NCBI GenBank assembly: GCA_021846565.1
Contig: JAJZWS010000028.1
Location: 1 to 37,444 of the forward strand
Source: Bacillota bacterium
GTDB taxonomy: Bacteria; Bacillota; Sulfobacillia; Sulfobacillales; JAIMBI01
Direction of reading: 5' to 3'
Length of the DNA: 37,444 nt
Shown: positions 9,697-28,452 of the stretch, one piece after another
How the letters are laid out: every line of letters starts with the position of its first letter
Position numbering within the stretch: the stretch's first letter is position 1
Program-made: the position numbers and the translations under genes
Notes under the pieces: generated by a model
The model's database searches: none
Told to the model about the DNA's origin: nothing
What the model saw: only the letters and a program-made list of their open reading frames with translations

Positions 9697-9701
9697 GTCC
9701 T

Positions 9702-10745
9702 CTACCTCTCCTTCGGTTGCTTGGTTGACCAGCGTGCACGTGCCCCCCACGCGCCGGCCGCGCTAAGGGCCGCCACCTGTCCGTGGGCATTGGCCACCCC
9801 TCGACCGGCAATGTCAAAGGCCGTCCCGTGGTCGACCGACGTGCGCAGAACCGGAAGACCCAGTGTCACACTCACGGTTCCATAAAAGTCCAGGGTCTTC
9901 GCCGCAATGTGTCCCTGGTCATGGTAGAGGGACAGCACCCCCGCATAGCGGCCCATCCGCGCTTGGTAGAAGACGGCGTCGGCAGGAATCGGGCCTTCGA
10001 CGCGATGGCCCTCACTTTGTGCCTGTTTGATGGCAGGCTCCAAGATCGCCCGTTCCTCCGTACCCAACAGGCCATGCTCGCCGCCGTGGGGGTTTAAGGC
10101 CGCGACGGCGAGCACCGGAGTCTCCACCCCCAAGTCCTTGAGGAACCCGAGGCACCGCGTGATGCCGGCGTGAACCTGGGCCACGCCGAGGAGGGCCGGA
10201 ACCTCGCTCAAAGGATGATGCCGGGTGAGAAAGAAGATGCGTAGCGTGTCCACTTCGAACATGGTGTACACACCGTCGACGCCAAACCGCTCGGCCAACA
10301 TTTCCGTGTGGCCCGGATAATGATAGCCCGCCAGGCGCAGCGCCTCCTTGTTCAGCGGCGCGGTATTGATGACGTCTACGGCCCCGGATTTGGCAGCGTC
10401 CACGACCGCCATGATCGCGCGTCCGGCTTCTTCCCCACCCCGACTGCCGACGACGCCGTACGGCACCGGCTCCGGGTCGGCCGCAGTGGCCACCAGCGAC
10501 AGCACCCTCGGGTCGTCGTCCACGGCCGCAACATCGTCGAGAACCTTCACGCGGCGGCTCGCACCCACTAGGTCCAGCGCCGCCTGCAACACATGGGGAT
10601 TCCCAAACAGAACCGGCGTCCATGCGCGCTCAGGCTCCAACTCCAGCAGGGCTTTCACCACGATTTCGGGCCCGATCCCCGCCGGGTCGCCCAACGTAAT
10701 ACCTATTCGCGCGGGACGCCTCTGAGGCTGCGAGAGTTTCGTCAC
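9702..10745 (-). CDS. pdxA2: PdxA2-like 4-phospho-sugar-acid dehydrogenase
   Basis: 347-residue NAD-dependent enzyme of the PdxA family: ITLGDPAGIGPEIVVKAL at the N-terminus, metal-binding histidines in YPGHTEML, LYHDQGHIAAKTL and TSVDHGTAFDIAG. PdxA proper makes pyridoxine precursor, but paralogues next to DUF1537 kinases (PdxA2) oxidise 4-phospho-D-threonate or -erythronate, which then decarboxylates to dihydroxyacetone phosphate. The neighbourhood strongly favours PdxA2. GTG 10745 is chosen because AAAGG lies 9 bp upstream; ATG 10754 would abut it directly. It is first in the minus-strand run pdxA2-cyclase-dehydrogenase-kinase, all joined by 5 bp or less, and lies 51 bp downstream of the deoR stop. 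Confidence 0.88.
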   Translation of the reverse strand: MTKLSQPQRRPARIGITLGDPAGIGPEIVVKALLELEPERAWTPVLFGNPHVLQAALDLVGASRRVKVLDDVAAVDDDPRVLSLVATAADPEPVPYGVVGSRGGEEAGRAIMAVVDAAKSGAVDVINTAPLNKEALRLAGYHYPGHTEMLAERFGVDGVYTMFEVDTLRIFFLTRHHPLSEVPALLGVAQVHAGITRCLGFLKDLGVETPVLAVAALNPHGGEHGLLGTEERAILEPAIKQAQSEGHRVEGPIPADAVFYQARMGRYAGVLSLYHDQGHIAAKTLDFYGTVSVTLGLPVLRTSVDHGTAFDIAGRGVANAHGQVAALSAAGAWGARARWSTKQPKER

Positions 10746-10796
10746 TTCCAACATCCTTTCACATCAGTTCTGGCTTCTGAGACACAGCGACCGGAC

Positions 10797-11597
10797 CTAG
10801 CCCAGACGGTCGGGATCCCCGTCCAGCGGGCCAGGCTCCGTCGGGGCGAGGCGAAACGCCAGCCCGGACGTTTCCAGCTGTTGCCGCTGGCGGTCGCTGA
10901 CGCGCTCATCGATCAGCAACGTGACCTCGTCTGGCAGGGGTGTGACAAAGCCGTACCGGGGTTCCCCCAGTTTGGTATGGTCGGCTGCCACATAAACGTG
11001 GCGCGCTGCCTGCATCATGGCTCCCTTAAGGTACGCCTGGGATAGGGTGGGCGAGACGAGACACCGACTCTCCAGGCTTACGCCGTACGCGCCCATGAAT
11101 GCGCGGTCAGGTCGGATGTGCCGCAGGTTGTCCTCGGTCAGCGAGCCCATCACAGCCTGATTCGCCGACCGAAGAGTGCCCCCCAGCATGATGACCTCAA
11201 AAGAGGCAAAAGGCAGCAGCGCCACCAGGATGTTTACGGCATTGGTGACCACCGTAATGTGGTGAAACCGGGCCAGCTCCCGGGTGATCATCCCGGTCGT
11301 CGTACCCGCATCCAGCAGGACCACTTCGGATTCCTGAATGTAGGAGACCGCCAGACGTCCAATCGCGGCCTTCTCGGCCACATGCGCCCGAGACTTCTCG
11401 GGGACGCTGGGCTCGCCCGGGAGCTCAATCACCCCGCCGTGCACTCTGAGCACCAAACGCTTGTCTTCCAGGACTTGCAGGTCGCGGCGGATGGTGGCGG
11501 CGGATGCGCCGGTGAGGCGTTGCAGGTCGGCGATGCCGACCTGCAACTGTGCCTCCACTGCCGCCAGGATTTTCCGGTGCCGAGCTTCCCGAGACAT
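10797..11597 (-). CDS. DeoR-family sugar-pathway repressor
   Basis: 266-residue DeoR-type regulator. The N-terminal winged helix (RHRKILAAVEAQLQVGIADLQRLTG, then SAATIRRDLQVLEDKRLVLRVHGG) carries the family's RRDL signature. The C-terminal ISOCOT effector domain has LDAGTTT, VVTNAVNI, MLGGTLR and ADHTKLG. Such proteins respond to phosphorylated sugars. ATG 11597 is chosen for the MSREARHRKI opening and the AGGGGGG site 5 bp upstream; upstream codons lie inside the neighbouring gene. It starts 10 bp after the beta-propeller gene and is followed by pdxA2, so it probably belongs to a transcript covering 12.6-6.6 kb and likely controls the whole island. Confidence 0.9.
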   Translation of the reverse strand: MSREARHRKILAAVEAQLQVGIADLQRLTGASAATIRRDLQVLEDKRLVLRVHGGVIELPGEPSVPEKSRAHVAEKAAIGRLAVSYIQESEVVLLDAGTTTGMITRELARFHHITVVTNAVNILVALLPFASFEVIMLGGTLRSANQAVMGSLTEDNLRHIRPDRAFMGAYGVSLESRCLVSPTLSQAYLKGAMMQAARHVYVAADHTKLGEPRYGFVTPLPDEVTLLIDERVSDRQRQQLETSGLAFRLAPTEPGPLDGDPDRLG

Positions 11598-11607
11598 CGA
11601 TGCCCCC

Positions 11608-12579
11608 CTATGCCATCTCAACGGCGCTGTGGCGCAGCTCGTGAGCCCGGTCGTCGCGCGCGTATTCATAAAAATAGTGAATCGTGCTCCCGCGCACCAC
11701 GGCATCAATGTATCGCAACGAACCACTCCCGTGCTGAGACCACAGGCGCGGCCCGTCAGCATCCACCTTGGTAAAGTGCTTCAGATCATGCGATACGGCC
11801 AACCCCGCGCGGTCCTGGTACGTCTCGCCGTTATGTGAGCGACCGTCAAACAGCATCCAGTAGACGCCGTCGCGGGGGATGATCGTCGAGCCCCGCGCCA
11901 GCAGGTAGTCCCAGCCCGATCCGGGTTCCAAGAGGGTGCCCGCCCAGCGGAAGTGGACCCCGTCGACACTGTACGCCAACCCGGTCTTCGACCGGAGGCG
12001 CCCCGTCGCAAAGGCATTTTCGGTCCCGTGCATCTCGTCGGCGCTGATGGGGAAGTCGGGGCGATCCACAAAATTGACCATTATATAGGTCACGGGCCCC
12101 ACCATGAAGACGAACGGATCTTTGACGCCCTCCAGATTGAACTCTGCTGCCGTCAGCGCGGGTCGGCGATCGGCAACACACAGGGCAGAGGGATCCTCGG
12201 CCTCCAACAGGTCGATGCGCCACCGGCGATCGGCAGGATCCACGTAGCTACAGTACAGCCGCCATGTCCCCGATGGCGCAATCTGTAGCGCGGACCGCTC
12301 GATGGATGCCGACCGCAGCTCGTCGGCCGAGATCTCGGTGAGCGACTGGAAGTTCACGCCGTCCGTGCTTTCCGCAATGCGGCACGCGATCCCCCGCCCT
12401 CGTCCAATGGGGTGCCGCACGCGGTACGCCATAACAAAGCGCTCGCGCCGCCCGTCGTACACCACCGAAGGCGCACCCACCCAAAAGTCCGGCTCAGGAC
12501 GATCGGGTTCAACGACCACCGTTCCACCATCTGGATCAAAGAGCGGCAGTGACGACCACTGTCGATCTACGTCGGCCAC
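11608..12579 (-). CDS. Five-bladed beta-propeller glycosidase-like protein
   Basis: 323-residue protein with repeating segments typical of GH43/GH32-type five-bladed propellers: FWVGAPSVVYDGRRERFVMAYRV, ESTDGVNFQSL, GVKDPFVFMVGPVTYIMV, AYSVDGVHFRWAGTLLEP, GVYWMLFDGRSHN and VSHDLKHFTKV. No signal peptide is seen, so a cytoplasmic enzyme acting on an imported oligosaccharide or glycoside is likely. GTG 12579 is preferred for an AAGGGGG site 9 bp upstream; ATG 12636 lacks a close ribosome site. It leads the minus-strand operon and is divergent from the MFS permease. I cannot assign a GH number or confirm catalytic acids. Confidence 0.7.
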   Translation of the reverse strand: MADVDRQWSSLPLFDPDGGTVVVEPDRPEPDFWVGAPSVVYDGRRERFVMAYRVRHPIGRGRGIACRIAESTDGVNFQSLTEISADELRSASIERSALQIAPSGTWRLYCSYVDPADRRWRIDLLEAEDPSALCVADRRPALTAAEFNLEGVKDPFVFMVGPVTYIMVNFVDRPDFPISADEMHGTENAFATGRLRSKTGLAYSVDGVHFRWAGTLLEPGSGWDYLLARGSTIIPRDGVYWMLFDGRSHNGETYQDRAGLAVSHDLKHFTKVDADGPRLWSQHGSGSLRYIDAVVRGSTIHYFYEYARDDRAHELRHSAVEMA

Positions 12580-12721
12580 GACGATAACCCCCTTGCTTGT
12601 GATCGAAATGACGACCAGGTTGAGTGTATCACTCATCTCGGGCCTTGGTCTACGGCGCGCTCCTTTCGCTGCATCGTTGCATCACAAACTTTTTTCCGAT
12701 CCGCCCTGTCCGAGCAGGATC

Positions 12722-12762
12722 CGCGATACGCTTTATCGAATCATCTCAAATGCGCGATACGC
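12722..12762. promoter_or_regulatory. Direct repeats CGCGATACGC, candidate DeoR operators
   Basis: CGCGATACGC occurs at 12722-12731 and again at 12753-12762, start-to-start 31 bp (about three helical turns), in the divergent gap between the propeller/deoR operon and the permease operon. Same-face spacing of identical sites is typical of cooperative repressor binding. That the local DeoR protein binds them is inferred from position. Confidence 0.5.
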
Positions 12763-12796
12763 GCACCAGGAATTTTTTCAAGAGGAGGCCCCTGCA

Positions 12797-14062
12797 ATGA
12801 GGATGGCGTCAAGTGTTCCCAGGCTCCGATGGACTCGGATCATGCCCATCGCCATCGCGATGTACACGATTTCGTTCATGGACCGCATCAATCTCTCGTT
12901 TGCCACCACGGGCATGGAGAAGGACTTCGGCCTGACGGCGACGGGGGTGGGCTTGATCCTAGGCTTCTTCTTCTTGGGATACTTGGTCCTTCAGGTCCCC
13001 GGCGGTTATTTGGCCGAGCGGTGGAGTGCGAAGAAGTTCGTGTTCTGGCTACTGCTCATCTGGGGAGTGTTCGCCGCCTTGAGTGGGCTTGCACAAAACT
13101 CCACGCAGGAGCTTTGGATCCGCTTCTTGCTAGGGGTCGCGGAGGGTGGCATCTGGCCCGCCACCCTGGTGTTGCTGGCTAACTGGTTCCCGCGCGAGGA
13201 GCGGGCGCGCGCGAACGGCCTCTGGATTATCTGCCTGCCACTGGCCGCTGCCATCACATCGCCGATTTCCGGTGCCTTGGTCACGGCCGTGGGCTGGCGG
13301 CTCATGCTGGTCTTCGAGGGGATTCCTGCGCTGATTTGGGCAGCGCTCTGGTGGTGGGGCATCGAGGACCGGCCCGAGCAGGCGAAGTGGCTCTCCACGA
13401 GTGAGCGCGATTTCATCACCACCCGCATCCACGCCGAGCGCCGTCCAACCACTGGCACGATTTGGAGTGTGCTACTGGAGCCGTCAGTGTGGCTGCTGTC
13501 GGCCGCCTACTTCCTGACCATCATGGGCGGGTACGGCTTGAATCTGTGGGCCCCGACCATCATCCATTCTATTGGGGTGGGCTTTTTAGGCACCGGTCTT
13601 CTGCTCGTCATTCCCAACGGCGCCGCCGTGTGGCTCCTCATCTCCGCCGGCCGATACTCAGACCGCATCGGTAAGCGAATCGCCGTCTCGGTCGGGGTCC
13701 TGTGCATCTCGTTTGTCGGCTATCTACTCCTCGGGATCATTGGAACCGGCATCGTCGCGCTGGCGATCTTGTTCCTGGCGTTTGCTACCGCTGGCTTCTA
13801 TGCCCGACAGGGACCCTTGTGGGCCATTCCCACCGAGGTCTTGCCCGCGGGGACCGCCGGCACAGCGATGGGGCTCATCAATGGCATCGGCAACATCGGT
13901 GGGTTTGTCGGGCCCTTCGTGTTTGGCTACCTGGAGACCACTACACATTCGTTCACCGTCGGATACTTCGTGATGGGCTTCGCCATTCTCGCGGGCGCGG
14001 CGGTGTTGCTCACCGTAAGGGAGCAGCGAAAGCAACCGGACGCTACCGCCGCAGCAGGATAG
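12797..14062 (+). CDS. MFS permease, anion:cation symporter family
   Basis: 421-residue integral membrane protein with about twelve transmembrane segments. The first-helix signature SFMDRINLSFATTGM is diagnostic of the ACS family, which imports tartrate, glucarate, galactonate, phthalate and similar organic acids by proton symport. The loop motif LAERWSAKK and the second-half motif GRYSDRIGKRIAV are also present. ATG 12797 is preceded by AGAGGAGG (12781-12788). It heads a plus-strand operon with the dehydratase and two aldolases, so it is the likely entry door for the sugar acid degraded here. Confidence 0.92.
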   Translation: MRMASSVPRLRWTRIMPIAIAMYTISFMDRINLSFATTGMEKDFGLTATGVGLILGFFFLGYLVLQVPGGYLAERWSAKKFVFWLLLIWGVFAALSGLAQNSTQELWIRFLLGVAEGGIWPATLVLLANWFPREERARANGLWIICLPLAAAITSPISGALVTAVGWRLMLVFEGIPALIWAALWWWGIEDRPEQAKWLSTSERDFITTRIHAERRPTTGTIWSVLLEPSVWLLSAAYFLTIMGGYGLNLWAPTIIHSIGVGFLGTGLLLVIPNGAAVWLLISAGRYSDRIGKRIAVSVGVLCISFVGYLLLGIIGTGIVALAILFLAFATAGFYARQGPLWAIPTEVLPAGTAGTAMGLINGIGNIGGFVGPFVFGYLETTTHSFTVGYFVMGFAILAGAAVLLTVREQRKQPDATAAAG

Positions 14063-14076
14063 CTCTCACACCCACC

Positions 14077-14093
14077 GGTGGAGCGGGTCCACC
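14077..14093 (+). other. Small intercistronic hairpin
   Basis: GGTGGA (14077-14082) and TCCACC (14088-14093) form a 6-bp stem with a 5-nt loop between the permease and dehydratase genes. No T-run follows, so it may stabilise or partition the mRNA rather than terminate it. Confidence 0.3.
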
Positions 14094-14119
14094 GCGCACA
14101 CAGAAAGGGGAACGCTCTC

Positions 14120-15292
14120 ATGAGGATCGCCGACGTTCGCGTGCGCTTCTTCCGATATCGCCCCCCCAACCCGCTGGTCAGCAGCGTCGGCAGCCGGAGG
14201 GTTCGCCTGCTCTGCCTCGTGGAAGTGGCTTCGACCAGCGGACTCGTCGGCGTGGGCGAAAGTTGGGTCAACTTTCCGTCCTGGGTCGCCGCGGAGCGCC
14301 ACGCAACCGTTGTAGAGGGCGTTGCCCCCTTGCTGGTGGGCCATGATGCCACCGATGTGGTCGACACCCATCATCGGCTAAAAGCGACCCTGGCCCCGGT
14401 CGGCCGTCAAAGTGGCATCACTGGTGCCGTGTCCCAGGCGCTCAGCGGTGTGGACTTGGCTCTGTGGGACCTCTTAGCCCGTGAGCGTGACGTTCCTGTT
14501 TACCGGATGCTGGGAGGCGGCCGGTCCCGGGTCCCGGTCTACGCGTCCGGGCTCGGCCCTCAGCTGGACGAGGAGATAGTGCGGGCGCAGATGGCCCGGG
14601 GTATTCGCGCCTTCAAGATCAAAGTGGGGTTTGACCCCGTCGAGGACTATACTCAGGTGGCCCGTCTGCGGCACATGGTCGGGGAGGACGCGCGGATCAT
14701 GGTGGACGCCAACCAGGGGTGGCGGACGCCCGCGGAAGCGCTCCAGGCCATCAAGCGGCTCGAACCCCTGCAGCTCGACTGGGTCGAGGAGCCCCTGCCC
14801 TGCGACGACTGGGAAGGCATGGCCCGCGTAGCGGCCCAGTCGCCGGTTCCCATCAGCGCGGGCGAGAATCTTTATGGGCGCGAGGCCTTCGCGTGGTGGG
14901 CCCACCGGGGCGCGTTCACCATTGCCCAGCCAGACGTCACCAAAGTTGGTGGCTTTACCGAGGCCTGGGCCATTGCCCAGATGATGCCGGCGTATGGCCT
15001 AGCCTGGGCGCCGCACTTCCTGGGGGGGGCCGTGGGTCTCGCCGCCACCTGCCACCTCTTCGCACTGGCGCCTGGTGGTATTGCCGTGGAGCTGGACAGC
15101 AACCCGAACGCCCTGCGCGAGGAAGTCGTCGAGCCCCCGTTCCCCACACAGGTTGAAGCGGGGTGCATCATGCTGCCGGATGCCCCGGGGTGGGGCATCA
15201 CGCTCCGCGAGGATTGGCTTGCCGCCCACGAAGTCGCGTGGCACGAGGCCTGGCAGGAGGCGGACCGGTCGGCGGCCCAAGGCCCGCGGTAG
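14120..15292 (+). CDS. Enolase-superfamily acid-sugar dehydratase
   Basis: 390-residue mandelate racemase/muconate-lactonizing-enzyme-type protein. The KxK acid-base motif (RAFKIKVGF), the three metal ligands (Asp in IMVDANQGW, Glu in WVEEPLP, Glu in ISAGENLYG) and the Asp/His dyad (QPDVTKVGG, WAPHFLGG) place it in the mandelate-racemase subgroup. That subgroup contains most sugar-acid dehydratases (galactonate, glucarate, rhamnonate, fuconate). It would abstract the C2 proton and expel the 3-hydroxyl to give a 2-keto-3-deoxy acid. ATG 14120 follows AAAGGGG. The aldolase downstream is the natural next enzyme. Which acid is used cannot be decided from motifs alone. Confidence 0.88.
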   Translation: MRIADVRVRFFRYRPPNPLVSSVGSRRVRLLCLVEVASTSGLVGVGESWVNFPSWVAAERHATVVEGVAPLLVGHDATDVVDTHHRLKATLAPVGRQSGITGAVSQALSGVDLALWDLLARERDVPVYRMLGGGRSRVPVYASGLGPQLDEEIVRAQMARGIRAFKIKVGFDPVEDYTQVARLRHMVGEDARIMVDANQGWRTPAEALQAIKRLEPLQLDWVEEPLPCDDWEGMARVAAQSPVPISAGENLYGREAFAWWAHRGAFTIAQPDVTKVGGFTEAWAIAQMMPAYGLAWAPHFLGGAVGLAATCHLFALAPGGIAVELDSNPNALREEVVEPPFPTQVEAGCIMLPDAPGWGITLREDWLAAHEVAWHEAWQEADRSAAQGPR

Positions 15293-15295
15293 GGG

Positions 15296-15326
15296 CGCGT
15301 GGGTGTCAGCGTCGGCGGCCCACGCG
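15296..15326 (+). other. Intercistronic stem-loop after dehydratase gene
   Basis: CGCGTGGG (15296-15303) pairs perfectly with CCCACGCG (15319-15326) over a 15-nt loop, directly after the dehydratase stop. No T-tract follows. It may be an mRNA processing or attenuation structure setting relative expression of the aldolases. Confidence 0.35.
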
Positions 15327-15360
15327 GGAGAGGGTAAAACGACACCGTGGAGGATTGATC

Positions 15361-16263
15361 ATGGCAGACTTGTACCCGGCACTGCTCACGCTCACCCGGG
15401 AGCCATCCGAGGATGCCCGCAGCGGCCCCGGTCCATCCGTGGACCAGGACGCCATGCTGCAGTACCTGGACTGGATCCAGTCGTCGCGCCGCAGCGACGG
15501 ACTGTTCGTGCTGGGCAGCACGGGGGCGGGCCCCATCTTGCCCTGGGCCCAGCAGCAGGACGTATTGACGCTCGTGCGCGACAGCGCCCGCCAGCCTGTG
15601 GTGGTCATGGTGGGGCCCCCCCTGCCCCGCGCCCCCTTTCTGGAGAAGCGGTCGTGGCTCCGATCGCGCGACTTCCAATCGATCGCCCTCCTGCCTCCCC
15701 TCTACTATGCGTTTCCCCCCGACGCTCAGGTGGCGACGATGACCGAGGCGGCGGCGTCCTGGCCGGGCGACGTGTGGCTGTACAACATTCCTCAGCGCGT
15801 GGGGTACTCGCTCACCTACGAAACCGTCGCACGCATTGTGGACCGCTGCCCCAATGTGGTGGGCATCAAGGATTCGAGCGGTGACGGGGCCAATGTCCCC
15901 GTCTGGCGCCAGATATTTGGCAGGGGGCGCGTCTTCTGCGGAGCCGAGCCGGTGGCCGTGGCCAGTCTGCTCACGGGAGCCGACGGCCTAGTGTCTCAGT
16001 ATGCCAGCGTCCTGCCCGAGGTGGGACGGGTGCTGGCGACCGAGGACCATCCCGAACGCTGTGACATTCAGGCGTCGCTCAACCGGCTGATTCAACGGTC
16101 CGCCCATCTGCCCCTGATGAGCTTGTTGGGGGAACTGGGATTCCAACGAGGTATTCTTCCGCACCGCATACAGCACCCGTGGCCGGTGCTGGGGGATATG
16201 GCCGGGGACCTCGTGCAGGAGTGGCTGGCCCTGGGCCGGGTGGCCGCGGCAGCTTGCCTCTGA
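15361..16263 (+). CDS. DHDPS/KDG-aldolase family protein
   Basis: 300-residue (beta/alpha)8 class I aldolase of the dihydrodipicolinate synthase family. The keto-acid binding loop reads VLGSTGAGPIL (GSTG), the catalytic Tyr region VWLYNIPQRVGYSLTYE, and the Schiff-base Lys VVGIKDSSGD. Members next to acid-sugar dehydratases are 2-keto-3-deoxy-sugar-acid aldolases or dehydratases rather than lysine-pathway enzymes. ATG 15361 follows GTGGAGG by 7 bp. It would split the dehydratase product into pyruvate (or a tartronate-type keto acid) plus an aldehyde, which the next gene's aldolase may relate to. Role is from context. Confidence 0.87.
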   Translation: MADLYPALLTLTREPSEDARSGPGPSVDQDAMLQYLDWIQSSRRSDGLFVLGSTGAGPILPWAQQQDVLTLVRDSARQPVVVMVGPPLPRAPFLEKRSWLRSRDFQSIALLPPLYYAFPPDAQVATMTEAAASWPGDVWLYNIPQRVGYSLTYETVARIVDRCPNVVGIKDSSGDGANVPVWRQIFGRGRVFCGAEPVAVASLLTGADGLVSQYASVLPEVGRVLATEDHPERCDIQASLNRLIQRSAHLPLMSLLGELGFQRGILPHRIQHPWPVLGDMAGDLVQEWLALGRVAAAACL

Positions 16264-16290
16264 TCCGCAGAAAGGTTGGTTTCAGACGTC

Positions 16291-17136
16291 ATGCTCATCA
16301 ATCTGCGAGCCGCCCTGACCGAGGGTTCGTGCGCCTGCCTGGGGTTTAACGTGACGACCCTTGAGGCGCTGGACGCCTTGATGGCGGTGGCCGAACGGCG
16401 GCCGGGCCCCACGATCCTCCAGATGACCGATCGCTACGTGGGCCACTTTGGGGAATCGCTGATCAGCAATTGGATGGTGCCCCGGCTCGCGGCCAGCCCA
16501 AAGGCGTTCGTCCTGCATCTGGACCACGGGGTGGACCTGGACGCCGTGCACCGGGCGCTTGACCTCGGGTTCACGTCCGTAATGTACGACGGCTCTCGCA
16601 AGCCGCTGGCCGACAATGTGGCCGGAACGCGACTGGCGGCCGAAGTCGCCCGGCGGGTTGGCGCCTCCGTTGAGGCGGAGGTGGGCCACGTCGGAGGCAA
16701 GGAAGACGGCAGCACACCCGCAGAAGACTCGTGGCTTACGACCATCGAGGATGCGCGAACCTTCGTGGCGGGGGTAGATGTGGACGCACTGGCCATCTCC
16801 GTCGGCAGCGTTCACGGGGCCCATCCCCTAAACCAGCCCCCACACCTGCGCTTGGACCGCATTCGCGACATCGCCGCGGTCGTGGCCGTACCCCTCGTCC
16901 TTCATGGGGGCAGCGGCCTTCCGCCGTCACTGCTGCAGCAGGCCATCCGCGCAGGCATTCGCAAGGTGAATATCGGAACCGAGCTGAAGCGGGCGTGGCT
17001 CGCAGGCATCGAAGCGGCCGCCCAGGCCACCCAAGAGCCCTGGGAGATTCGCGAGCGAACCACGATGCGCCTCATGACGAGCATTTGCCAACTGGAGAAT
17101 GCCGTTTGCCCGCCGGAGCATGCGTCCCACGCCTGA
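16291..17136 (+). CDS. Class II (zinc) ketose-bisphosphate-type aldolase
   Basis: 281-residue zinc aldolase of the FbaA/GatY/KbaY family: FNVTTLEAL, zinc-ligand segment LHLDHGVDLD, MYDGSRKPL, VEAEVGHVGGKEDG, SVGSVHGAH, LVLHGGSGLP (zinc ligand and phosphate loop) and VNIGTELK. Such enzymes condense or cleave dihydroxyacetone phosphate with an aldehyde. Here it could act on the DHAP made by the PdxA2 branch or on a ketose phosphate from the isomerase. ATG 16291 is the likely start although the nearest AAAGG (about 16271-16274) is 16 bp away; TTG 16276 is the alternative. Last gene of the plus-strand sugar operon; debris follows. Confidence 0.9.
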   Translation: MLINLRAALTEGSCACLGFNVTTLEALDALMAVAERRPGPTILQMTDRYVGHFGESLISNWMVPRLAASPKAFVLHLDHGVDLDAVHRALDLGFTSVMYDGSRKPLADNVAGTRLAAEVARRVGASVEAEVGHVGGKEDGSTPAEDSWLTTIEDARTFVAGVDVDALAISVGSVHGAHPLNQPPHLRLDRIRDIAAVVAVPLVLHGGSGLPPSLLQQAIRAGIRKVNIGTELKRAWLAGIEAAAQATQEPWEIRERTTMRLMTSICQLENAVCPPEHASHA

Positions 17137-18965: not shown

Positions 18966-19433
18966 TTACTCCCGATGTCGCAGCACCCAGCCCGCTGGCC
19001 ACGTCGTGCCGTACCGGGCGAGCGCCTCAGCCACCACGCGCGGACGCACATCGCAGGCGCCCAGGGAGAGCAACGGCACCCAGCGCGGCACGTAAGCCCG
19101 TACGCCCGCCGCATCCGCGAACTCCGGCCCGCTGCCGGTGCCGAAGGCCCCGGATACCCACTGTGCTTGATAGTACAACTGCAGGCTCTCTTCGGCCGCG
19201 GGTTCGGCGCTGGATGGACGGAACCGCACTTCGGCCAGCAGGGGACCCAATGCCACGTGGATTCCCAATTCCTCGCGGGTTTCGCGCACGGCGGCCGCCT
19301 CGGGCGACTCCATCGGCTCCACCCCACCACCGGGAAACACGTAGTACGGCATCACCCCGTCCCGATGGCGTTCGATAAGCGCCACTTGGCCCTCGTGCAC
19401 CACCACGACGCCCGCGCGCACGCGCGGGCTCAC
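18966..19433 (-). CDS. NUDIX hydrolase
   Basis: 155-residue NUDIX protein. The 23-residue Nudix box is complete: GGGVEPMESPEAAAVRETRE followed by ELGI, with the REtrEE metal ligands. It would hydrolyse a nucleoside diphosphate linked to another moiety; candidates are 8-oxo-dGTP, ADP-ribose or dinucleotides, and the substrate is not readable. GTG 19433 overlaps the stop of the upstream fusion gene by four bases (GTGA), showing translational coupling. It is the last gene of the four-gene minus-strand operon. Confidence 0.88.
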   Translation of the reverse strand: MSPRVRAGVVVVHEGQVALIERHRDGVMPYYVFPGGGVEPMESPEAAAVRETREELGIHVALGPLLAEVRFRPSSAEPAAEESLQLYYQAQWVSGAFGTGSGPEFADAAGVRAYVPRWVPLLSLGACDVRPRVVAEALARYGTTWPAGWVLRHRE

Positions 19434-20518
19434 TGGGAACTCACTGCCAGAAACCGCTCCCGCCCCGGGTACCGTTCCCCCAGCGAGTGGACCACAAAGC
19501 CCAGCCGTCGGTAGAACCCGACGGCATCCTCGTCGGTCGTGAGCCAGCACACCCGTGGAGCCACTGCGCGCTGGATGGTCTCCACCAGCCGGCGACCGCG
19601 GCCCTGGCCACGGCACGACGCCTCCACGGCCAGGTGGGAGATTTCCACCAGGCCGGGATCCCTGAGGTCGACGCCCACCACGCCCTGAATGGCCCCCGCC
19701 TCGGCCAGCGCATACAGGGCGTGGGGCCACCCGTGATATTCGTCCAGCAGGGTGTCCAGGTCGGCGTCGGTAGGATGAAACAGCGACGGTGCCAGTGCGG
19801 CGGCAAGCTCCGTGCGGGTCCACACTGTCTCCCGGGCGTCTACGCGCATCACACCGGAGTCGACGGCGGGGAACGTTGGGGTTGCACGTTCCGGCCAGGC
19901 GAACACGCGTATCTGCCGGTTCTCATAGTCGTTGACAAACAGGCGTCCCGCGCCCCACGCCAATCCTGTTGGCTGCCCGCCGACGACCTGAGGAGCCGTG
20001 GATGCCTCGCGGCCGTCACCGTCCAACACGCGAATCGCGCCTGACTGCACGTCCGCCCACACGCACTGTCCCCCCACCAGGGTGAGCCCGCCGGGGGTGG
20101 CGGTGGAAGGCCACGTGCCCAGTACCACCCCCGATCCCCACTCCTGGGCCTCGAGGATGCCCAACCGCTTGCGGAGCAGGTACAGCACCGGTCCGCGTCC
20201 GTCTATGCCGCACACGTCTTCGCCCAGCGGACGCAACCCCTCGGCGGCTCCCGTCGCTGGATCGATGCGCACCAGGCTTTTCGGGCGCCCCGCCACTTGG
20301 TAGAGCATTCCGTCCCGGTAGGCCAGTCCCGTCCGCACCGAATGCTGGGTGGCGTCCAGCTGGTGCTCCTGCAAAACGTCTCCCGTCCGCGGGTCGAGCC
20401 GGCTCACCCGGTGCGTGTCCCCGTCGGAATACCAAAGGGCGCTGCCATCCCAGGCGAGCCCGCACGGGTGCGGCCCGGGGGTTGGCCACACGCGCACGGA
20501 CCGCACTTCAGCGATCAT
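19430..20518 (-). CDS. Beta-propeller-GNAT acetyltransferase fusion
   Basis: 362-residue two-domain protein. Residues 1-210 are repeating propeller blades of the SMP-30/YncE/NHL type (GLAWDGSALWYSDGDTHRV, GLAYRDGMLYQV, GLTLVGGQCVWADV, GLAWGAGRLFVNDY). Residues 222-362 form a GNAT N-acetyltransferase: EISHLAVEASCRGQGRGRRL carries the RGQGRG acetyl-CoA loop (303-310), and DAVGFYRRLGF is the C-terminal motif. ATG 20518 follows AGGGGGA by 9 bp and overlaps the CCA-adding gene by 11 bp. The continuous frame with no stop or linker defect argues for a true fusion. Substrates of either half are unknown; the propeller may bind the acyl acceptor. Confidence 0.8.
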   Translation of the reverse strand: MIAEVRSVRVWPTPGPHPCGLAWDGSALWYSDGDTHRVSRLDPRTGDVLQEHQLDATQHSVRTGLAYRDGMLYQVAGRPKSLVRIDPATGAAEGLRPLGEDVCGIDGRGPVLYLLRKRLGILEAQEWGSGVVLGTWPSTATPGGLTLVGGQCVWADVQSGAIRVLDGDGREASTAPQVVGGQPTGLAWGAGRLFVNDYENRQIRVFAWPERATPTFPAVDSGVMRVDARETVWTRTELAAALAPSLFHPTDADLDTLLDEYHGWPHALYALAEAGAIQGVVGVDLRDPGLVEISHLAVEASCRGQGRGRRLVETIQRAVAPRVCWLTTDEDAVGFYRRLGFVVHSLGERYPGRERFLAVSSQ

Positions 20519-21956
20519 GGACGGGATCCCCCTGTTCGTCCGATGCTGCGTCGGGCGATCCCTCCTCGATGCGCGGATCCGGGGGAACTTCGCCATGGCG
20601 GCGCTGCCACTGGAGGGCTTCCCGGTGCAGCGCCTCGCGGCGGTTGTTCTCGGGATGGAGGAGCACCCAGTGACGCAAATGTGTCAGCACCGAGCCCACG
20701 GCGCGGCTGGGGCGGGCAATCCCCAGCCATTCTTGCACATCCTCGCCTGTGCAGGCGAGCGCCAACCCGTAGGGCGCGTCGGTGACGACGGCTGCCTCCA
20801 GCTTCGCACCCAGTGCACTGGGGTGGCTCGGCGGCTCGCCGTCGAGCGCGGCGACATCCGCTTCATAGAGGGTCAGCAAGCTGCGCACCCGGTCGGGCCC
20901 GTCGTCTACCCAGAGGCGGCGCAGCTCCGTCGCGGTGGCCTGACGCCAGCGGAACCCATGGTGGGCCACCAGCCAGGTCATGTCCTCCGTGGTCTTCCCG
21001 GGAAAGCGCATGCGGCGCAGCATGCGCTCAGCCCAAAGCGCACTCACCTGCTCGTGCCCGTCAAACCGCCAGGCCCCCGCGCTAGCCTGTCGGGCACACA
21101 CCGGCTTGCCGATGTCGTGCAGCAGCCCCGCCAGCCTGAGCCGCGGCGGCAGCGCGACCGCCGTGGCCAGGCAGTGCGCATCGACGGGATGGCCGTTTTG
21201 CGGAAAGCCCCGTGCCACCGCCCACTCCGGCCAGATGACGTCCCACACGCCCAGCTCCTGAAGGACAGCGAGCGCTCGCCCCAACGCTTCGGGATCCTGG
21301 GCCGCCAGCAGCCGGGTCAGCTCCTCGCCTTGGCGCTCGGGCGCCACCATGGCCAGGCGCGGACGCTCCACGCGAATCGCCCGGGCCGTGGCCTCCTCCA
21401 GGTGAAAGCCGCCTTGGCTCAAGAGGCGCACGGCCCGCCACATGCGGAGTGGGTCCTCGCGAAAGCGGTCGACGGGCGGCCCCACGGAGCGCACGCACCC
21501 GGCGGCCAGGTCTCGGAGCCCTCCAACCGTGTCCACCACCTGACCATCGAGGTCAATGGCCAGCGCATTCATCGTAAAGTCTCGCCGCGCGGCGTCCTCG
21601 GCCCACGACGTGCCAAAGCGCACCGAGCTGGGTCGCCGCCCATCCCGATACACCCCGTCGGCGCGAAAGCTGGTCACGTCGACGGCACCGGATCCCTTGG
21701 GTCCGTGAATGGCCACGGTGCCCCAGCGAATGCCGCCGTAAGCCAGCATCCATTCCGGATGCACCCGCCGCACCAGCGCCACCGTGTCGTCGGGCGCGAG
21801 GATGGTGGCGAGGTCCCAGTCGCGCGGGGCACGGCCCCGGATCACATCCCGGGCGGCGCCGCCCACCAGATACGTGGGACCGGCGGACCCGAGCAACTCC
21901 CACACGGTCCGCACCAGCGGCGGCACGGACCCGGTGTCCACCCGTATTGGATCCAC
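20508..21956 (-). CDS. cca: CCA tRNA nucleotidyltransferase with HD domain
   Basis: 482-residue class II CCA-adding enzyme. The polymerase head shows GGAARDVIRGRAPRDWDLAT (GG and DxD), the RRDFTMNALAID motif and GRPxxR-type segments. The middle has the template-like EDPLRMWRAVRLLSQ. The C-terminal half contains an HD phosphohydrolase domain (LLHDIGKPV, HHGF), as in the bacterial HD-containing branch. It adds or repairs the tRNA 3' CCA end. GTG 21956 has GGGAGAGGG about 6 bp upstream and begins 22 bp after the alpha-mannosidase stop, so this housekeeping gene is embedded in the carbohydrate/nucleotide operon. Confidence 0.93.
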   Translation of the reverse strand: MDPIRVDTGSVPPLVRTVWELLGSAGPTYLVGGAARDVIRGRAPRDWDLATILAPDDTVALVRRVHPEWMLAYGGIRWGTVAIHGPKGSGAVDVTSFRADGVYRDGRRPSSVRFGTSWAEDAARRDFTMNALAIDLDGQVVDTVGGLRDLAAGCVRSVGPPVDRFREDPLRMWRAVRLLSQGGFHLEEATARAIRVERPRLAMVAPERQGEELTRLLAAQDPEALGRALAVLQELGVWDVIWPEWAVARGFPQNGHPVDAHCLATAVALPPRLRLAGLLHDIGKPVCARQASAGAWRFDGHEQVSALWAERMLRRMRFPGKTTEDMTWLVAHHGFRWRQATATELRRLWVDDGPDRVRSLLTLYEADVAALDGEPPSHPSALGAKLEAAVVTDAPYGLALACTGEDVQEWLGIARPSRAVGSVLTHLRHWVLLHPENNRREALHREALQWQRRHGEVPPDPRIEEGSPDAASDEQGDPVHDR

Positions 21957-21978: not shown

Positions 21979-24900
21979 TTATGCGCGGGGCGAGGCCACC
22001 CGCCAGCGCATCACCGCGATGCCGTACGCGGGCAGGCTGACGGTGGCCGTCTGGCGCTCGGTGTCCCACCGCACCACCGCGGCGTCGTTGGGCACTTCTG
22101 TGATGGGGTCGACGCTCACGGCTCCCGTGCCGGCGATGGGCAGGCTCACCACCGCATCCGTCTGGGTGCCGTACGTCTCGCCCAGCGCCAGCACGAAATC
22201 ACCCGACTGGTCTTCCGCCGCGGACAGGCCCAGCACTACCACATTGAGCGGGAGAGACGCGAGCGGCGCATAGAGGCCAGGTGCGCCGTGGGGCTCTATC
22301 GCCGCCGATACGCCGTGCGACCACGCCTGGGCGGCCCCGTGAACGGACGGGGTGGCCCACGTGCCCTCGTGTGGCAGAATCAGGAGGCTTACGGGGGCGG
22401 GTTTTTGATCCGCATCGGGATCGGGATAGAGCGGGGCGGTGGACAGCGTAACGCCTATACAGCCCCCGTCGGCCGAATGGCCGTAGCGGCCGTCGTTGGC
22501 GATGGCCACGCCCACCCCCGCCTCCGCCAGGGAAACAAACCGCTGGGCCACCCACTCAAAGGCCGCCAAGTCATTTTCTCCTTCGGGGACGGTGGGATGG
22601 CGCGACATGCCCCAGAGCCCCTCGGCCTCCGCGGCCGCGGCCTGAAGCGTGGTGGCCAGCTCCCACCGCACCACCAAGTGCCGGTCGCGCACGTCCGCTG
22701 TGACATCGGTGGCCACGCGGCCGTGCACGCGGTCCACCGCCACGTGTTCGGTCACCACGGTCGCGCCGGTCCGATGCTCGAGCCGCACCACGGTCCGCCA
22801 AGCGTGGTGCTCCACCACCGCCAGCGGATCGTGGTGCCAGGTCACAGGCGTCTCACGGTACTGCGGCGACAGCTCCCACGCGTCGTAGTGGGCCGGGTGG
22901 TCCAGGTAGCCCCGCACACCCGACGGTTCGGCCAGAAGCTCCCGTCCTCGGTGCACAAAGTTCCGGATCCCTTCGGGTCCCACCACCACCCGTCCCTGGG
23001 GCAGGGGCAGCACCATGGCATCGCCTTCAGCCGTGGGCAAAGCCTCGGCGGCCGTCGCCGCCTCGAGGAGCCGCATGGCGTATCGAGCCACCGACAGTGC
23101 CGGCTGCCCGGGCACCGGCACGACAAAGCGCCCGTCGTGCGTACGCTCGGCTGGCCGCCACGCGCCCTCCACCTCCACCGCTACGGGTCCGGCCGCTTGA
23201 AACACCTGGAGGGAGCCGGGCACCGACGTCCCCGCGGCATTGGCCACCGTGAGGACGTCGTCGGCCCCGTGAGTGGGCAGGGACGCCATCAGGGTGTCCC
23301 AGCTGGCATCCACCCGCGACGCCACCACGGCCATGTCGTCCCGCCAGTCTTGATACACCTCGGCAATCGACGACCCGGGCAGAATGTCGTGAAACTGGTT
23401 TCGGAGCACCCGACGCCACGCGTCTTCCAACCCTTCGGTCCCGCGACCCAACAGCGCCGACCAAGCTTCCACGGCATTGAGCCGCGCCTCCCAGCGTCGG
23501 TTGCCCCGCTTCACGGCCGTCTGCGTGGTGAACACTCCACGGTGGTACTCCAGGTACAAGTCGCCGCGGTGCTGGGGCCAGGTGTTGGCCGTCCGCTCGT
23601 CGGGAATCAGGTCCTCCAGCGTTCCCCACTCCAGGCGGGGCGCCAGTGGCAGTCCGCGATACCGGGTGAGCCGCTCCAGCATCTCCCGCGTGGGCCCACC
23701 ACCGCCGTCGCCAAAGCCGAACGTGTACAACACCCGGCCGGTGCCGCCGCCCTCCTCGTAGTTGGCCCACGCGCGGTCCAAATCCTCCAAGGTGCCGTCG
23801 CCGTTGTATCCCGCCGCCGCTCCTCCGTAGAGCTGCACGGCCACGCGGCTGCCGTCCGGGCCCACCCAGCCAAAATCCGTGTACGGAAAGCGCGTCGTGT
23901 CGTTCCACAGCAGCTTGGTGGTCACCATCATGTCGATGCCCGCCAGGCGCAAGAGCGTCGGCCAGCCGCCGGCGAAGCCAAACGTGTCGGGCAAAAACGC
24001 CACTCGGGGCCGCTGACCCGCCTCGGCCATAAAGTAGCGGCCCGCATATCGAAGGTGGCGCAGCACGGCAGCGGCCGACGGCAGCTGGGCGTCGCACTCC
24101 ACCCAGGTGGCGCCGGCGGGCTGGAGGCGGCCCGCGCGCGTTTGCGTCTGCATGCGCTCAAACAGGGCCGGCTCCGTCTCCTGCACGCCCCGCCACATCT
24201 CGGGGCTGGACATGAGATAGCCCCAGTCGGGAAATGCCGACAGCAGCCGGTCCTGGGTGGCCATGGTGCGCAGAATCTTGCGACGGGTCTCGGCAATCGG
24301 CCAGAGCCACGCCAGGTCGATGTGCGCATGGCCGATGGCCACCAGCCGTCCCGCCCCCTCGGGCCAAGTGGCCGCCAGTTCGGCGCCAAGCTCCGTGAGC
24401 CGCTCCCCCACAGTCCGGACAGCGCGGGTCACATCGGCGCGGTCCACCGCCTCCAATCCCACCACCCGACCGGGGTGGACCACGAGCCGCTGATACAGGC
24501 CCGCCTCCACGGAGGCGTCTGGCCGCCGGCGCTCCCGCGCCTCCCAGACCGCCCGATCCGGACTGAGCGCCATGAACGGCTTTACCGCTGCGAGCACCCG
24601 GGGGCAAAGCCAGTTGCGCACCGCCACCGGGGTGGCGCTGCGCATGCCCAGCTCACGCAGCACCGCCAGATCCCATCGCACGCATTCGAACGCGGGGTCA
24701 AGACCCAAGACTGCCATCGACCGGAGCTGCGGATAGGCCAGCGGCCGCCCGAACCCCCCGCGGGGCACCACTTCCAGGGTGAGCTCGAGGGTCCGCCCCG
24801 CCTCAGGCGACAGGTCCGCTTCCCGATGATTGGGGTTGATGCCCCACGCTGGAACGCCGTCGACCCGCAACAGCGCCTCGCCATCGACGTCGACCACGAG

Positions 24901-25122
24901 TCGCACGGACCCGGGGGGCAAGGCCACCCGCGCGCTCAGCACTGCCATCGCGGCGTCGGGATGCGTCCAGGGCCTGCCCCAGGCCACCGGCTCCTCTCCC
25001 AGGACCCCCGCCCGCCCCCGGTACTGAACGGTGGCGTCGTGCACGTCCACGCGGTCCACCACGGCCCAGGTATCCAGCGCCTCCACCCAAAACTGCAGCC
25101 CATGCCAAAAACTGCGATCCAC
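21979..25122 (-). CDS. GH38 alpha-mannosidase
   Basis: 1047-residue retaining alpha-mannosidase of family GH38, the usual length. Zinc-site and catalytic motifs are present: [20 protein letters not shown] (zinc His and Asp), [20 protein letters not shown] (Asp nucleophile region) and [18 protein letters not shown] (zinc His). The N-terminal beta domain and the long C-terminal beta-sandwich follow the family pattern. No signal peptide: cytoplasmic action on imported manno-oligosaccharides is likely. GTG 25122 has GGAGGG 8 bp upstream; ATG 25149 lacks a ribosome site. First gene of an operon with cca, the propeller-GNAT fusion and the NUDIX gene. Confidence 0.93.
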   Translation of the reverse strand: [1047 protein letters not shown]

Positions 25123-25214
25123 GCTGACATCCCTCCACACGCTGGCCATTATGTTCTCTTGACCACGGTGTCATCGACCCGCCGCCTCCGTCGTCGCCTG
25201 TTCGGGCCATTCTA

Positions 25215-25402: not shown

Positions 25403-25945
25403 ATGTGGACCGGAACACGGACCGGCATACGGCTCGGACTGCTCTTCAGTCTGCTGGGCATTGCTCTCGCGGCGCTGGACCTGTCGATTGGGTTCAAAGT
25501 GGCCACCACGCTTGACGGCGGTGTGTGGTGGAACGTCTTGTTGGACGTTATTCCGCTGGGCTTGTTTGCGCTGGCGGGCGGCATCGCGCGGCGCCGCGGC
25601 AACCATCCCCTTATCGTGGGGCTGTGGGTGGGGCTCGTGTACGGCCTAGTGGCGGGGGTGGCCAGCTATGTGGTCGCTCTGGTCATCCCCGGCAAGGCGA
25701 CCTTGATTCGCGTGATGTGGCAAACCTACGAGCACCTCCACGGCAAGGCCAGCGCCACCGTGAGTTCCCACTCGCAGCTGGTGGCCGCGGTCCTGCACCC
25801 GGCGTTTGCCAACTACGTGGTCAACGACGCTCTGCAGATGGCGCTGTTTGGCTGCATTTTCTCCCTCTTGGGCGGCATGGCGCCCCGGCGTCCCCGGCAG
25901 CCGGCGTCTGGGTCCCCGAACCCGGGACCGGCCCGTCAAAACTGA
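25403..25945 (+). CDS. Small multipass membrane protein, unknown function
   Basis: 180-residue hydrophobic protein with about four predicted membrane segments: LGLLFSLLGIALAALDLSIG, WWNVLLDVIPLGLFALAGGI, the LIVGLWVGLVYGLVAGVASY region and a C-terminal ALQMALFGCIFSLLGG. The hydrophilic tail is Pro/Arg-rich (APRRPRQPASG). ATG 25403 has GGAGGC upstream; a start 81 bp earlier lacks one. Its last 10 bp overlap the end of the convergent GNAT gene. The pattern resembles small DUF4199-like or YrhK-like integral proteins but I cannot assign a family. Confidence 0.7.
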   Translation: MWTGTRTGIRLGLLFSLLGIALAALDLSIGFKVATTLDGGVWWNVLLDVIPLGLFALAGGIARRRGNHPLIVGLWVGLVYGLVAGVASYVVALVIPGKATLIRVMWQTYEHLHGKASATVSSHSQLVAAVLHPAFANYVVNDALQMALFGCIFSLLGGMAPRRPRQPASGSPNPGPARQN

Positions 25946-27066
25946 TCTAGGCTCCACAGAAACGGCGTGGCGGGAGGAAACAGGGCACCCAGCCACGGGT
26001 CGTCATCCCGCCCGCAGATCACAGCCTCCAAGAAATCCGCGCCCGCGAGCGTTCGTTCCCCAGCCGCCCACACCAGACGCACCCCGTCGGGCCGTTCGCC
26101 GAGGGTGAGCGCCGGCACCCCCGCGTCCTCGGCTCGCCGCGCCAGCACGGGGTGAATGGCGCGCAGCAAGGCCGGCGCACTGACCAGCGACCACATCCCC
26201 CGGTGGCGACCCGGGATCACCGATCGCCCTTCGGCCAACACATGCCCCGCGGGCAGAGACAGCGGCACCATGCCCGGCGCCCCCATCTGCCGGTGGGCGC
26301 GTTCCACCAGTGCTTCGGCGGCGCCGGGATGATTCAGATGGGACACCACTTCCCATAGGCGGATGCGACGGCCCTGGACGGTGGGCCCCTCCTCATCCTC
26401 CCCGACCTCTGGAATCCGGCCGAAGAAATAGCCAGCCAGTCGGCCAGCCTGCTCTGCCACCAGCCACTCTCTGCCTGGATCCACCTGCTCGGTCCACCGG
26501 ATCGCATCCGTCCAAAACGCCTTGGAGCGGACATGGCCCAGCGGAGCCATCTGGGCGGCATAGATCGTCCGAATGGCCCTCCAGTCCGCGGGCTTTACGG
26601 AGCGCACGGTGTACCCGCTACGTGTCGCCCCGTCGTCCGGCGACCATGCCACCGTGGTGCCAAACGGCAAGCGAACGTAGCCCGCGCGCTCATAAAGCGG
26701 AATCGCTCGTTCGCGCGCAAACAGCAGGGCCAGAGCAAAGCCCGCGGGGGCCATCCAGGCGCGTTGCGCGTTTAACACGGCCAGCGCCAGCCCCTGCCCA
26801 CGATGGGTGGGCCGCGTGGCCACGCTGCCAATGCCCGCCACCAAAAGCGTGGTGCCATCCCAGCGCGCGTCAAAGGGGAAAATCTGCGCCGCGCTCACGA
26901 CCTCTCCCCCCACCACGGCCACCCAGGTGGTGGCGGAGTCGTATGTACGATCCCCCTCCAGCCGACGTTGAAAAAACCCTCGGTCCTCGTCAAAGACGTC
27001 ACCCCACAGCTCAAAGCATTGTTCCAGCTCCTCGCGCCCTCGCACGGGACGCACCTGGGACTCCAT
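25936..27066 (-). CDS. Eis-like GNAT N-acetyltransferase
   Basis: 376-residue protein with a first GNAT domain (AAQIFPFDARWDGTTLLVAG, then GIGSVATRPTHRGQGLALAV with the acetyl-CoA loop, and ALLFARERAIPLYERAGYV), followed by a second GNAT-like and a sterol-carrier-like segment. This is the architecture of Eis/GNAT_acetyltr_9-type enzymes that acetylate amines, including aminoglycosides in some hosts. ATG 27066 has AGAGGAG upstream. Convergent with the small membrane protein, overlapping by 10 bp. The substrate is unknown. Confidence 0.85.
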   Translation of the reverse strand: MESQVRPVRGREELEQCFELWGDVFDEDRGFFQRRLEGDRTYDSATTWVAVVGGEVVSAAQIFPFDARWDGTTLLVAGIGSVATRPTHRGQGLALAVLNAQRAWMAPAGFALALLFARERAIPLYERAGYVRLPFGTTVAWSPDDGATRSGYTVRSVKPADWRAIRTIYAAQMAPLGHVRSKAFWTDAIRWTEQVDPGREWLVAEQAGRLAGYFFGRIPEVGEDEEGPTVQGRRIRLWEVVSHLNHPGAAEALVERAHRQMGAPGMVPLSLPAGHVLAEGRSVIPGRHRGMWSLVSAPALLRAIHPVLARRAEDAGVPALTLGERPDGVRLVWAAGERTLAGADFLEAVICGRDDDPWLGALFPPATPFLWSLDQF

Positions 27067-27159
27067 GAGCGTGCTACTCCTCTCCGTCGGTCGCCATAGT
27101 TGTCGACTGCGGCACAATGCGAACCCTCCCCGCCCGGTGTCGTATCGCCGGCGCCCCGA

Positions 27160-28149
27160 TCAGGGATTCATCCGGGCGCCGACCAGCGCGACCACGGCGG
27201 CGTGCGCGTTTCGGGGCAGATAGCGGTCGGGACGCACGGTTTGACCGCTAAAGCGGCACGCCTGGAGCGTCTGACGCCAACGGAGGGGAATATCCGCTTC
27301 ACCGTACACGGCACCGGCCAGTGCCCCCGCGATGGCGGCATTGGTGTCGGTGTCGCCGCCCAGCATGACGGTAGCCGTGATGGCCGCTTCGCTGTCGGTC
27401 GCATGCAGCCCCTGAAAGAAGGCGTTGTGGAGCGCCGTCAGGACGTAGCCTGTATGGTGCGAAATAGGCGGGACTTCTTCGGCGGCCTGCTCCAAGCAGC
27501 GCGTCACTGCGGCTTCACTCCCGAACTCACGTTGGTACGCCTCGGCAAAGGCATAAGCATCCCGGCCCGTGCCGCCGTGCTGGATGATGTGGGCCAGCGT
27601 GGCCACGTAAACGGCCGAGGCGTCCAGGCACACCGGATGCGGATGCGTGAGGCGTGCGTCCTCGCGGGCCAGGGCTCCCAGGGTGGCGGGCGCCACGCCG
27701 GTGCCCCAAATGCCCAGGACACTTTCCCGCATCAAAGCCCCGTTGGCTTGGCTGACGAGACTGGTGTGCTGGCGCATCACCGCGGCCATGTTCTTACGAC
27801 CCGGTGCCCCGGCGGCGGCCCGGAGCACCGTCCCGATGGTGATGCCCATGTCGAAGGGACGCGAGTCAAACCAGCGCACATAGCCGCGGGCGACGGCGTC
27901 CCCATCCACGTAGTCCCCGTCGGCCGGCAGGGCATGCAGCAACTCGACTGCCATCTCCGAATCGTCGGTGAGCTGGCCAGCGGCAGTGCCCCAGACCGGA
28001 CTGGCTCCCATGTCTCGGAGCCCGTCGGGATACCGCGCCGCCAAGTCTCCGGGATGGGAAAACTCGACCATGCTGCCCAGGGCATCCCCCGCCATCTGGC
28101 CCCACCAGCATCCCAGGGCCCGGTCCCGCCGCTCGCTCGCGTCGCTCAT
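27160..28149 (-). CDS. ADP-ribosylglycohydrolase (DraG/ARH family)
   Basis: 329-residue member of the ADP-ribosylglycohydrolase family, which removes ADP-ribose from proteins or degrades related ADP-ribosides. The N-terminal CWWGQMAGDALGSMVEF, the metal-binding LTDDSEMAVELL (TDDSxM) and the second site MLGGDTDTNAAIAGALAGAVYG (GGDTDTN) are all intact. ATG 28149 has AAGGAGGGG directly upstream. The left end of IS110 copy C lies only about 47 bp before the start, so the native promoter may be interrupted. No ADP-ribosyltransferase partner is visible in the window; the NUDIX hydrolase at 19 kb could act on released ADP-ribose, but that is speculation. Confidence 0.92.
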   Translation of the reverse strand: MSDASERRDRALGCWWGQMAGDALGSMVEFSHPGDLAARYPDGLRDMGASPVWGTAAGQLTDDSEMAVELLHALPADGDYVDGDAVARGYVRWFDSRPFDMGITIGTVLRAAAGAPGRKNMAAVMRQHTSLVSQANGALMRESVLGIWGTGVAPATLGALAREDARLTHPHPVCLDASAVYVATLAHIIQHGGTGRDAYAFAEAYQREFGSEAAVTRCLEQAAEEVPPISHHTGYVLTALHNAFFQGLHATDSEAAITATVMLGGDTDTNAAIAGALAGAVYGEADIPLRWRQTLQACRFSGQTVRPDRYLPRNAHAAVVALVGARMNP

Positions 28150-28196
28150 GGCCGCCCCTCCTTGCCCATTCACTGCCCGTTCACTGTACACAATTG

Positions 28197-28452
28197 CCCA
28201 TGCGGCTGAGCTGCACCCCGCCCCATGAAAAACAGGGTTCAAGGTCATCGATGGCGAAGGAGGAGCGGCTGCCGTGAGGAGGTCGGTATCTCTGTGGTCT
28301 TGCGAGGCCGCGACACCGTTTGACCCGGAGCGCCGTGGGGAATTCGCCTAGTTGTGGCCCCTCGGGGCGAGCACGGAGCAGAATCCATCCTGATGGCGTG
28401 GGACGCCGCCTACGGCCTTCACGTGAGTAGCGCGGACGAAAGCAGGGAATCG
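28197..28452 (+). ncRNA. Candidate bridge-RNA leader of IS110 copy C
   Basis: Non-coding 5' part of copy C, colinear with the leader of copy A. The stem CCGTGGGG (28333-28340) and CCCCTCGG (28358-28365) has one mismatch compared with the perfect copy-A stem. The 17-nt loop (28341-28357) differs from copy A at about five positions, while the following 40 bases are nearly identical. CGGAGCAG at 28374-28381 again equals the element's right terminus. Position and pattern suit an IS110 bridge RNA; expression is unproven. Confidence 0.4.

Follow-up and report, generated by a model that had tools for sequence, protein, structure and literature searches.

In a 37,444-nucleotide stretch of DNA from a Bacillota bacterium (the window), one gene was found to encode a small beta-propeller followed by a GNAT acetyltransferase domain. 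The propeller-GNAT fusion is a real, genus-restricted two-domain protein; its parts are ordinary and the combination is new. Our preferred explanation, to which we give a probability of about 50%, is that the fusion arose at the level of the genus and that a non-catalytic, binding propeller would hold an acceptor or present it to the GNAT domain. The gene and its immediate surroundings are composed of the following features.

18966-19433, minus strand: NUDIX hydrolase, 155 aa, GTG start, overlapping the fusion gene by 4 bp (GTGA); PF00293
19430-20518, minus strand: propeller-GNAT fusion gene, 362 aa; recognized by ORF reading, Pfam, relatives and alignment
19433-19813, minus strand: GNAT domain, residues ~236-362; Pfam, R303-G-Q-G-R-G308, Tyr336
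19814-19894, minus strand: linker, residues ~209-235; low pLDDT, dN/dS
19895-20518, minus strand: five-bladed beta-propeller, residues ~1-208; AF2 model, glutaminyl cyclase fold match, alignment with stand-alone propellers
20508-21956, minus strand: cca tRNA nucleotidyltransferase-like gene, 482 aa, overlapping the fusion gene by 11 bp

Reading frame and conservation of the fusion

The fusion gene starts with the ATG at 20518 and ends with a TGA at 19430, and no internal stop codons were present. The mechanical ORF begins at an upstream ATG (20596), deeper within cca. The plus strand at the same coordinates contains a stop and encodes no such protein. GC contents of 0.74/0.53/0.81 at the three codon positions followed the same pattern as in cca and the NUDIX gene. 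An earlier note on this DNA had described one unbroken frame spanning propeller and acetyltransferase, and this was borne out: the protein of 362 residues lies on the minus strand and is in frame in three genomes. The overlaps of 11 bp with cca and 4 bp with the NUDIX gene were likewise confirmed. The order of the domains stood as well; the note, which named no strand, placed them at 1-210 and 222-362, and they are read here as ~1-208 and ~236-362 with a linker in between. Production of a separate GNAT protein from an internal start was considered and rejected; an ATG occurs at residue 224, but inspection by eye revealed no ribosome-binding-like sequence before it.

The full-length fusion was detected in 3 of 61 relative genomes, namely the window's own (G000), G003 and G001, all belonging to one genus of uncultured bacteria; this count rests on three loci, and in G002, the fourth genome of the genus, the contig carries cca (90% identity) and ends inside it, before the fusion site. 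The window protein and that of G003 aligned without gaps over 362 residues including the junction, and G001 is likewise in frame across it. Identity to the window protein amounted to 73% for G003, with a dN/dS of 0.37, and to 59% for G001; the conserved fusion is thus more than chance. No relative was found in viral contigs. Phage records did not yield any match to the propeller, and plasmid records gave eight weak partial matches to it, none spanning 80% of the query. When the whole protein was used as query against plasmid records, 24 records were matched; among the 20 listed, only the GNAT half was matched. Judged by the titles and abstracts of their hits, narrow full-text searches found no paper on the propeller-GNAT architecture; such a negative speaks only weakly for its absence from the literature.

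The propeller half

An AF2 model of the full protein, built from a two-sequence alignment, had an overall pLDDT of 58.8. Residues 20-207, mostly at 70-87, formed five blades, the starts of which were read from the model near residues 17, 61, 101, 142 and 181; the N-terminal strand appears to close blade 5. The blades received no support from an ungapped repeat-periodicity test, in which 171 of 1000 shuffles scored as well, and the blade count is therefore that of the model. A strongly hydrophobic N-terminus was looked for in the fusion protein and not found, which sets it apart from the plant-type glutaminyl cyclases. Pfam matches on the propeller all stayed below cut-off (DUF6923, Glu_cyclase_2, Vgb_lyase), and none of six aligned propellers matched NCBIfam. 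Judged by sequence, the propeller half is in no curated family.

The best Foldseek match of the propeller was the glutaminyl cyclase of Xanthomonas (3mbr, E 1.1e-10). VIA-align also placed 3mbr at the top (Z 19.9, rmsd 2.8, 207 residues aligned), followed by 3nol (18.8), 2iwa (18.6), YjiK (18.5), TRIM2 NHL (17.7) and olfactomedin domains (~16); rows within 1 Z count as tied, so that YjiK and other propellers are close. The likeness to the plant-type (type I) glutaminyl cyclases (PF05096; 3mbr, 3nol, 2iwa) resides in the five-bladed fold, with Z values of 18.6-19.9. Sequence similarity to PF05096 was weak, at 18.2 bits for the propeller alone and 16.7 bits for the whole protein (cut-off 22.3), and the window propeller differs from these enzymes in being fused to a GNAT domain. 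Published work on plant-type glutaminyl cyclase names E69, N155, K225 and Q24 as active-site residues and Glu69 of the papaya enzyme as the proposed proton shuttle (PMC5837995). Papaya Glu69 aligned opposite T63 of the window protein, in a column whose residues across the six propellers are T, P, G, T, T, T. With the register set by eye, papaya Q24 would correspond to C19 and K225 to Y198. Glutaminyl cyclase activity of the propeller was rejected because the catalytic Glu69 is replaced by T, P or G. As the propeller has the fold of a glutaminyl cyclase and lacks the catalytic Glu, it is probably a non-catalytic binding module. H17, C19, R62, Q74 and C103 are possible pocket residues; they are among 39 columns that are invariant in the six fused and stand-alone propellers, a number that makes the conservation no proof of a pocket.

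The GNAT half and the linker

The GNAT half was recognized by Pfam at residues 254-344 with 43.5 bits for PF13508 (cut-off 27) and 42.6 bits for PF00583 (cut-off 20.7). GNAT enzymes bind acetyl-CoA through motif A, Q/R-x-x-G-x-G/A. This motif is kept as RGQGRG at residues 303-308, although the loose pattern also matches twice within the propeller; Tyr336 is kept likewise. AF2 modeled this half poorly, with pLDDT mostly below 50 in the full protein and a mean of 47 when it was modeled alone from an alignment of two sequences.

The closest solved GNAT by sequence was RibT from the riboflavin operon of Bacillus subtilis (5xxr, profile E 3.5e-13), the alignment with the window GNAT ending at RibT residue 98, before Cys112, a residue probed for its part in catalysis. 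RibT reportedly acetylates a protein, RibH (PMC9048828). As solved, the RibT chain comprises one domain of 132 aa, whereas the window GNAT is fused to a propeller. RibT also differs in sitting in a riboflavin operon; the neighbors of the window gene are cca, the NUDIX gene and a GH38 gene, and scans of 20 other window ORFs (cut-offs 1e-8 and 1e-5) found no riboflavin families.

Differences from the stand-alone relatives became evident in an alignment of ten GNAT rows, eight stand-alone and two fused, with G001 left out. The position preceding TD in the ETD motif is E in seven of the eight stand-alone rows and Y in the remaining one; it is T in both fused rows and M in the fused GNAT of G001 outside this alignment. 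The Cys of R(F/Y)xC near the C-terminus is present in all eight stand-alone rows and replaced by Ala in both fused rows. In a tree of the ten rows, in which some forks are open, the stem leading to the two fused rows measures 1.79 changes per column. On these sequence distances, the fused GNAT has diverged fast. Since two conserved features are absent and the branch is long, the chemistry or the acceptor of the GNAT domain may have shifted after the fusion, or the domain may now differ in activity or be less active.

Comparison of the window gene with that of G003, the one pair for which dN/dS was calculated, gave an overall value of 0.37, with 0.40 for the propeller and 0.25 for the GNAT half. 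The linker was poorly conserved, and codons 208-235 had a dN/dS of 1.24 that derives from just 17 differences (4 synonymous and 13 nonsynonymous). By this measure, purifying selection was shown for both halves. Such a pattern is what one would expect of two functional domains connected by a spacer.

Occurrence of the halves apart and in other combinations

A profile of the propeller family found 6 of 154 genomes of the class, three with the fusion and three (G029, G035 and G037) with stand-alone propellers of 207-216 aa that are 31-35% identical. In a sample of 398 genomes of the phylum, it found the window's genome, and G505 added only a weak repeat match. The G505 locus (L110, G505:C19:15000-21000) holds near-identical blade repeats (YGLAWDG...LWLAG) in an unrelated frame of ~405 aa. 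The GNAT subfamily was more widespread, with matches in 33 of the 154 class genomes, three of them fused to the propeller. G035 and G037 carry a subfamily GNAT in addition to the stand-alone propeller, on different contigs; in G029, the subfamily was seen only as a weak match of 40 residues. Neither cca nor NUDIX was detected by tblastn at the stand-alone propeller loci L068, L069 and L070 (L070 comprising 3.7 kb). Because the stand-alone halves are unlinked and the propeller loci lack cca and NUDIX, the fusion is most likely a genus-level joining of unlinked genes at the cca locus. The earlier note had named relatives with the two halves as separate genes and a stop at the junction as evidence against it. 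Separate halves do exist, but they are unlinked, and no adjacent pair with a stop was seen.

Three long frames among the 33 GNAT subfamily matches were translated (G100, G090 and G112), and those of G100 and G090 were scanned. In G100 (L106, G100:C19:1-4000; match 756-1139), an N-terminal Imm5-like putative immunity domain (PF21805, 71.1 bits, cut-off 25) and the GNAT share one frame. G090 (L107, G090:C23:3000-8000) has tandem GNATs in one frame, the first of which belongs to this subfamily. These frames resemble the window protein in that the same subfamily has been joined and differ from it in the partner, which is Imm5-like or another GNAT and not a propeller. Since the G100 and G090 frames are fused to other modules, this GNAT subfamily has entered into fusions more than once, with the propeller as one of several partners.

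Genes adjoining the fusion

The NUDIX gene matched PF00293 with 62.8 bits (cut-off 21.1). The consensus of the NUDIX box is GX5EX7REUXEEXGU; the box of the window's NUDIX protein, at residues 36-58, is loose, with Thr at a hydrophobic U position. The coupling to a NUDIX gene proposed in the earlier note held in part. An open NUDIX gene adjoins the fusion in G000 and, 64% identical and directly behind it, in G001, but in G003 a frame-broken remnant takes its place (tblastn pieces L067 10734-10859 and 10856-11020, the translations of which contain stops). A second NUDIX gene of G003 (L109), 52% identical and with an open frame, lies ~27 kb away on the same contig. NUDIX matches at E 1e-12 were obtained in 4 of the 61 genomes. 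Given the remnant in G003 and the few genomes with a NUDIX match, the pairing is a habit of the locus and not an obligate partnership. The spacing between cca and the fusion gene varies as well, from overlaps of 11 bp in the window and 4 bp in G003 to a gap of ~30 bp in G001.

In G001, the C-terminal piece of the GNAT lies in a different frame (tblastn pieces 10038-10442 and 10399-10458), and this difference opens an ORF of 514 aa that runs through the GNAT into NUDIX (L066, 9381-10925). A designed triple fusion of propeller, GNAT and NUDIX was rejected, as the expected GNAT C-terminus runs on in another frame. The frame difference may be an assembly error or a true frame change.

A GH38 alpha-mannosidase gene (21979-25149, minus strand) ends 22 bp before cca in the window. 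By sequence, a GH38 gene precedes cca in G003 too and not in G001.

Proposed mode of action and alternative explanations

The fusion would have originated from a small five-bladed propeller family (~207-216 aa alone) and a GNAT subfamily, both of which occur separately in the same order. The propeller would serve as a binding disc, linked to the GNAT domain through a flexible spacer, and it would tether or present a protein or metabolite acceptor, to which the GNAT domain would transfer the acetyl group of acetyl-CoA. The idea of the earlier note that the propeller could select the acceptor is thus plausible. The NUDIX enzyme is probably a co-transcribed neighbor that can be lost. Eukaryotes have a GNAT that works with an acceptor-recognizing beta-propeller, HAT1 with its WD40 partner RbAp46/Hat2. 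That pair consists of two chains with a seven-bladed propeller and is invoked as an analogy only, no homology being claimed. In a more specific version, which we regard as improbable, the window protein is a one-chain counterpart of such a GNAT-propeller complex: a disc for acceptor recognition built into a bacterial acetyltransferase, in which a propeller of cyclase fold without cyclase chemistry captures an N-terminus or a side chain.

Alternatively, the fusion may be a mere tether that fixes co-expression of proteins working side by side, or it may be near-neutral with a declining GNAT. The near-neutral linker, the long GNAT branch with its two missing features and the other-frame GNAT C-terminus of G001, merged with NUDIX in one ORF, are in line with this, as is the joining of the same subfamily to unrelated modules elsewhere. 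We nevertheless consider it rather unlikely, as the GNAT half has the lower dN/dS and an intact acetyl-CoA motif and Tyr336, and as genomes with both halves apart have them on different contigs. A bifunctional enzyme, in which the propeller would catalyze a non-cyclase reaction such as making an amine for the GNAT domain to acetylate, appears somewhat less plausible still. H17, C19, R62, Q74 and C103 remain invariant across fused and stand-alone propellers despite the low identity, the register would put C19 and C103 at blade positions facing the central pocket, and the propeller also exists alone, where it is presumably functional without GNAT. However, many of the invariant propeller positions are common blade-motif residues, and alike blades occur in the unrelated G505 array; besides the absence of Glu69 of glutaminyl cyclase, no other catalytic set was recognized. 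A sequencing or annotation artefact merging two genes is hardly credible. Frame changes do occur in such draft assemblies, as G001 illustrates, but artefact was rejected on the finding that three genomes are in frame across the junction, in two of them within ungapped proteins of 362 residues, and with the halves unlinked elsewhere, there is no known pair of neighboring genes for an error to have merged.

To our knowledge, many bacterial members of the GNAT superfamily have no known acceptor. If the propeller does pick the acceptor, the fusion would be a compact case of a GNAT gaining substrate specificity by fusion, and the stand-alone propeller and the stand-alone GNAT of sister lineages would be natural controls for the contribution of each half. 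If it does not, the protein would be ordinary, one more lineage-specific joining of domains.

Other genes of the window

Neither an Rfam scan nor a tRNA scan detected anything in the window. Another GNAT gene (Acetyltransf_9) adjoins an ADP-ribosylglycohydrolase gene at 25936-28248 on the minus strand. A catabolic-looking run at 6595-17136 comprises SBD_N/NBD_C kinase-like, 3-hydroxyacyl-CoA dehydrogenase-like, cyclase, PdxA, DeoR regulator, MFS, MR_MLE, DHDPS and class II aldolase genes. An ArsB-type arsenical pump gene (517 bits) is located at 34693-35994 on the plus strand.
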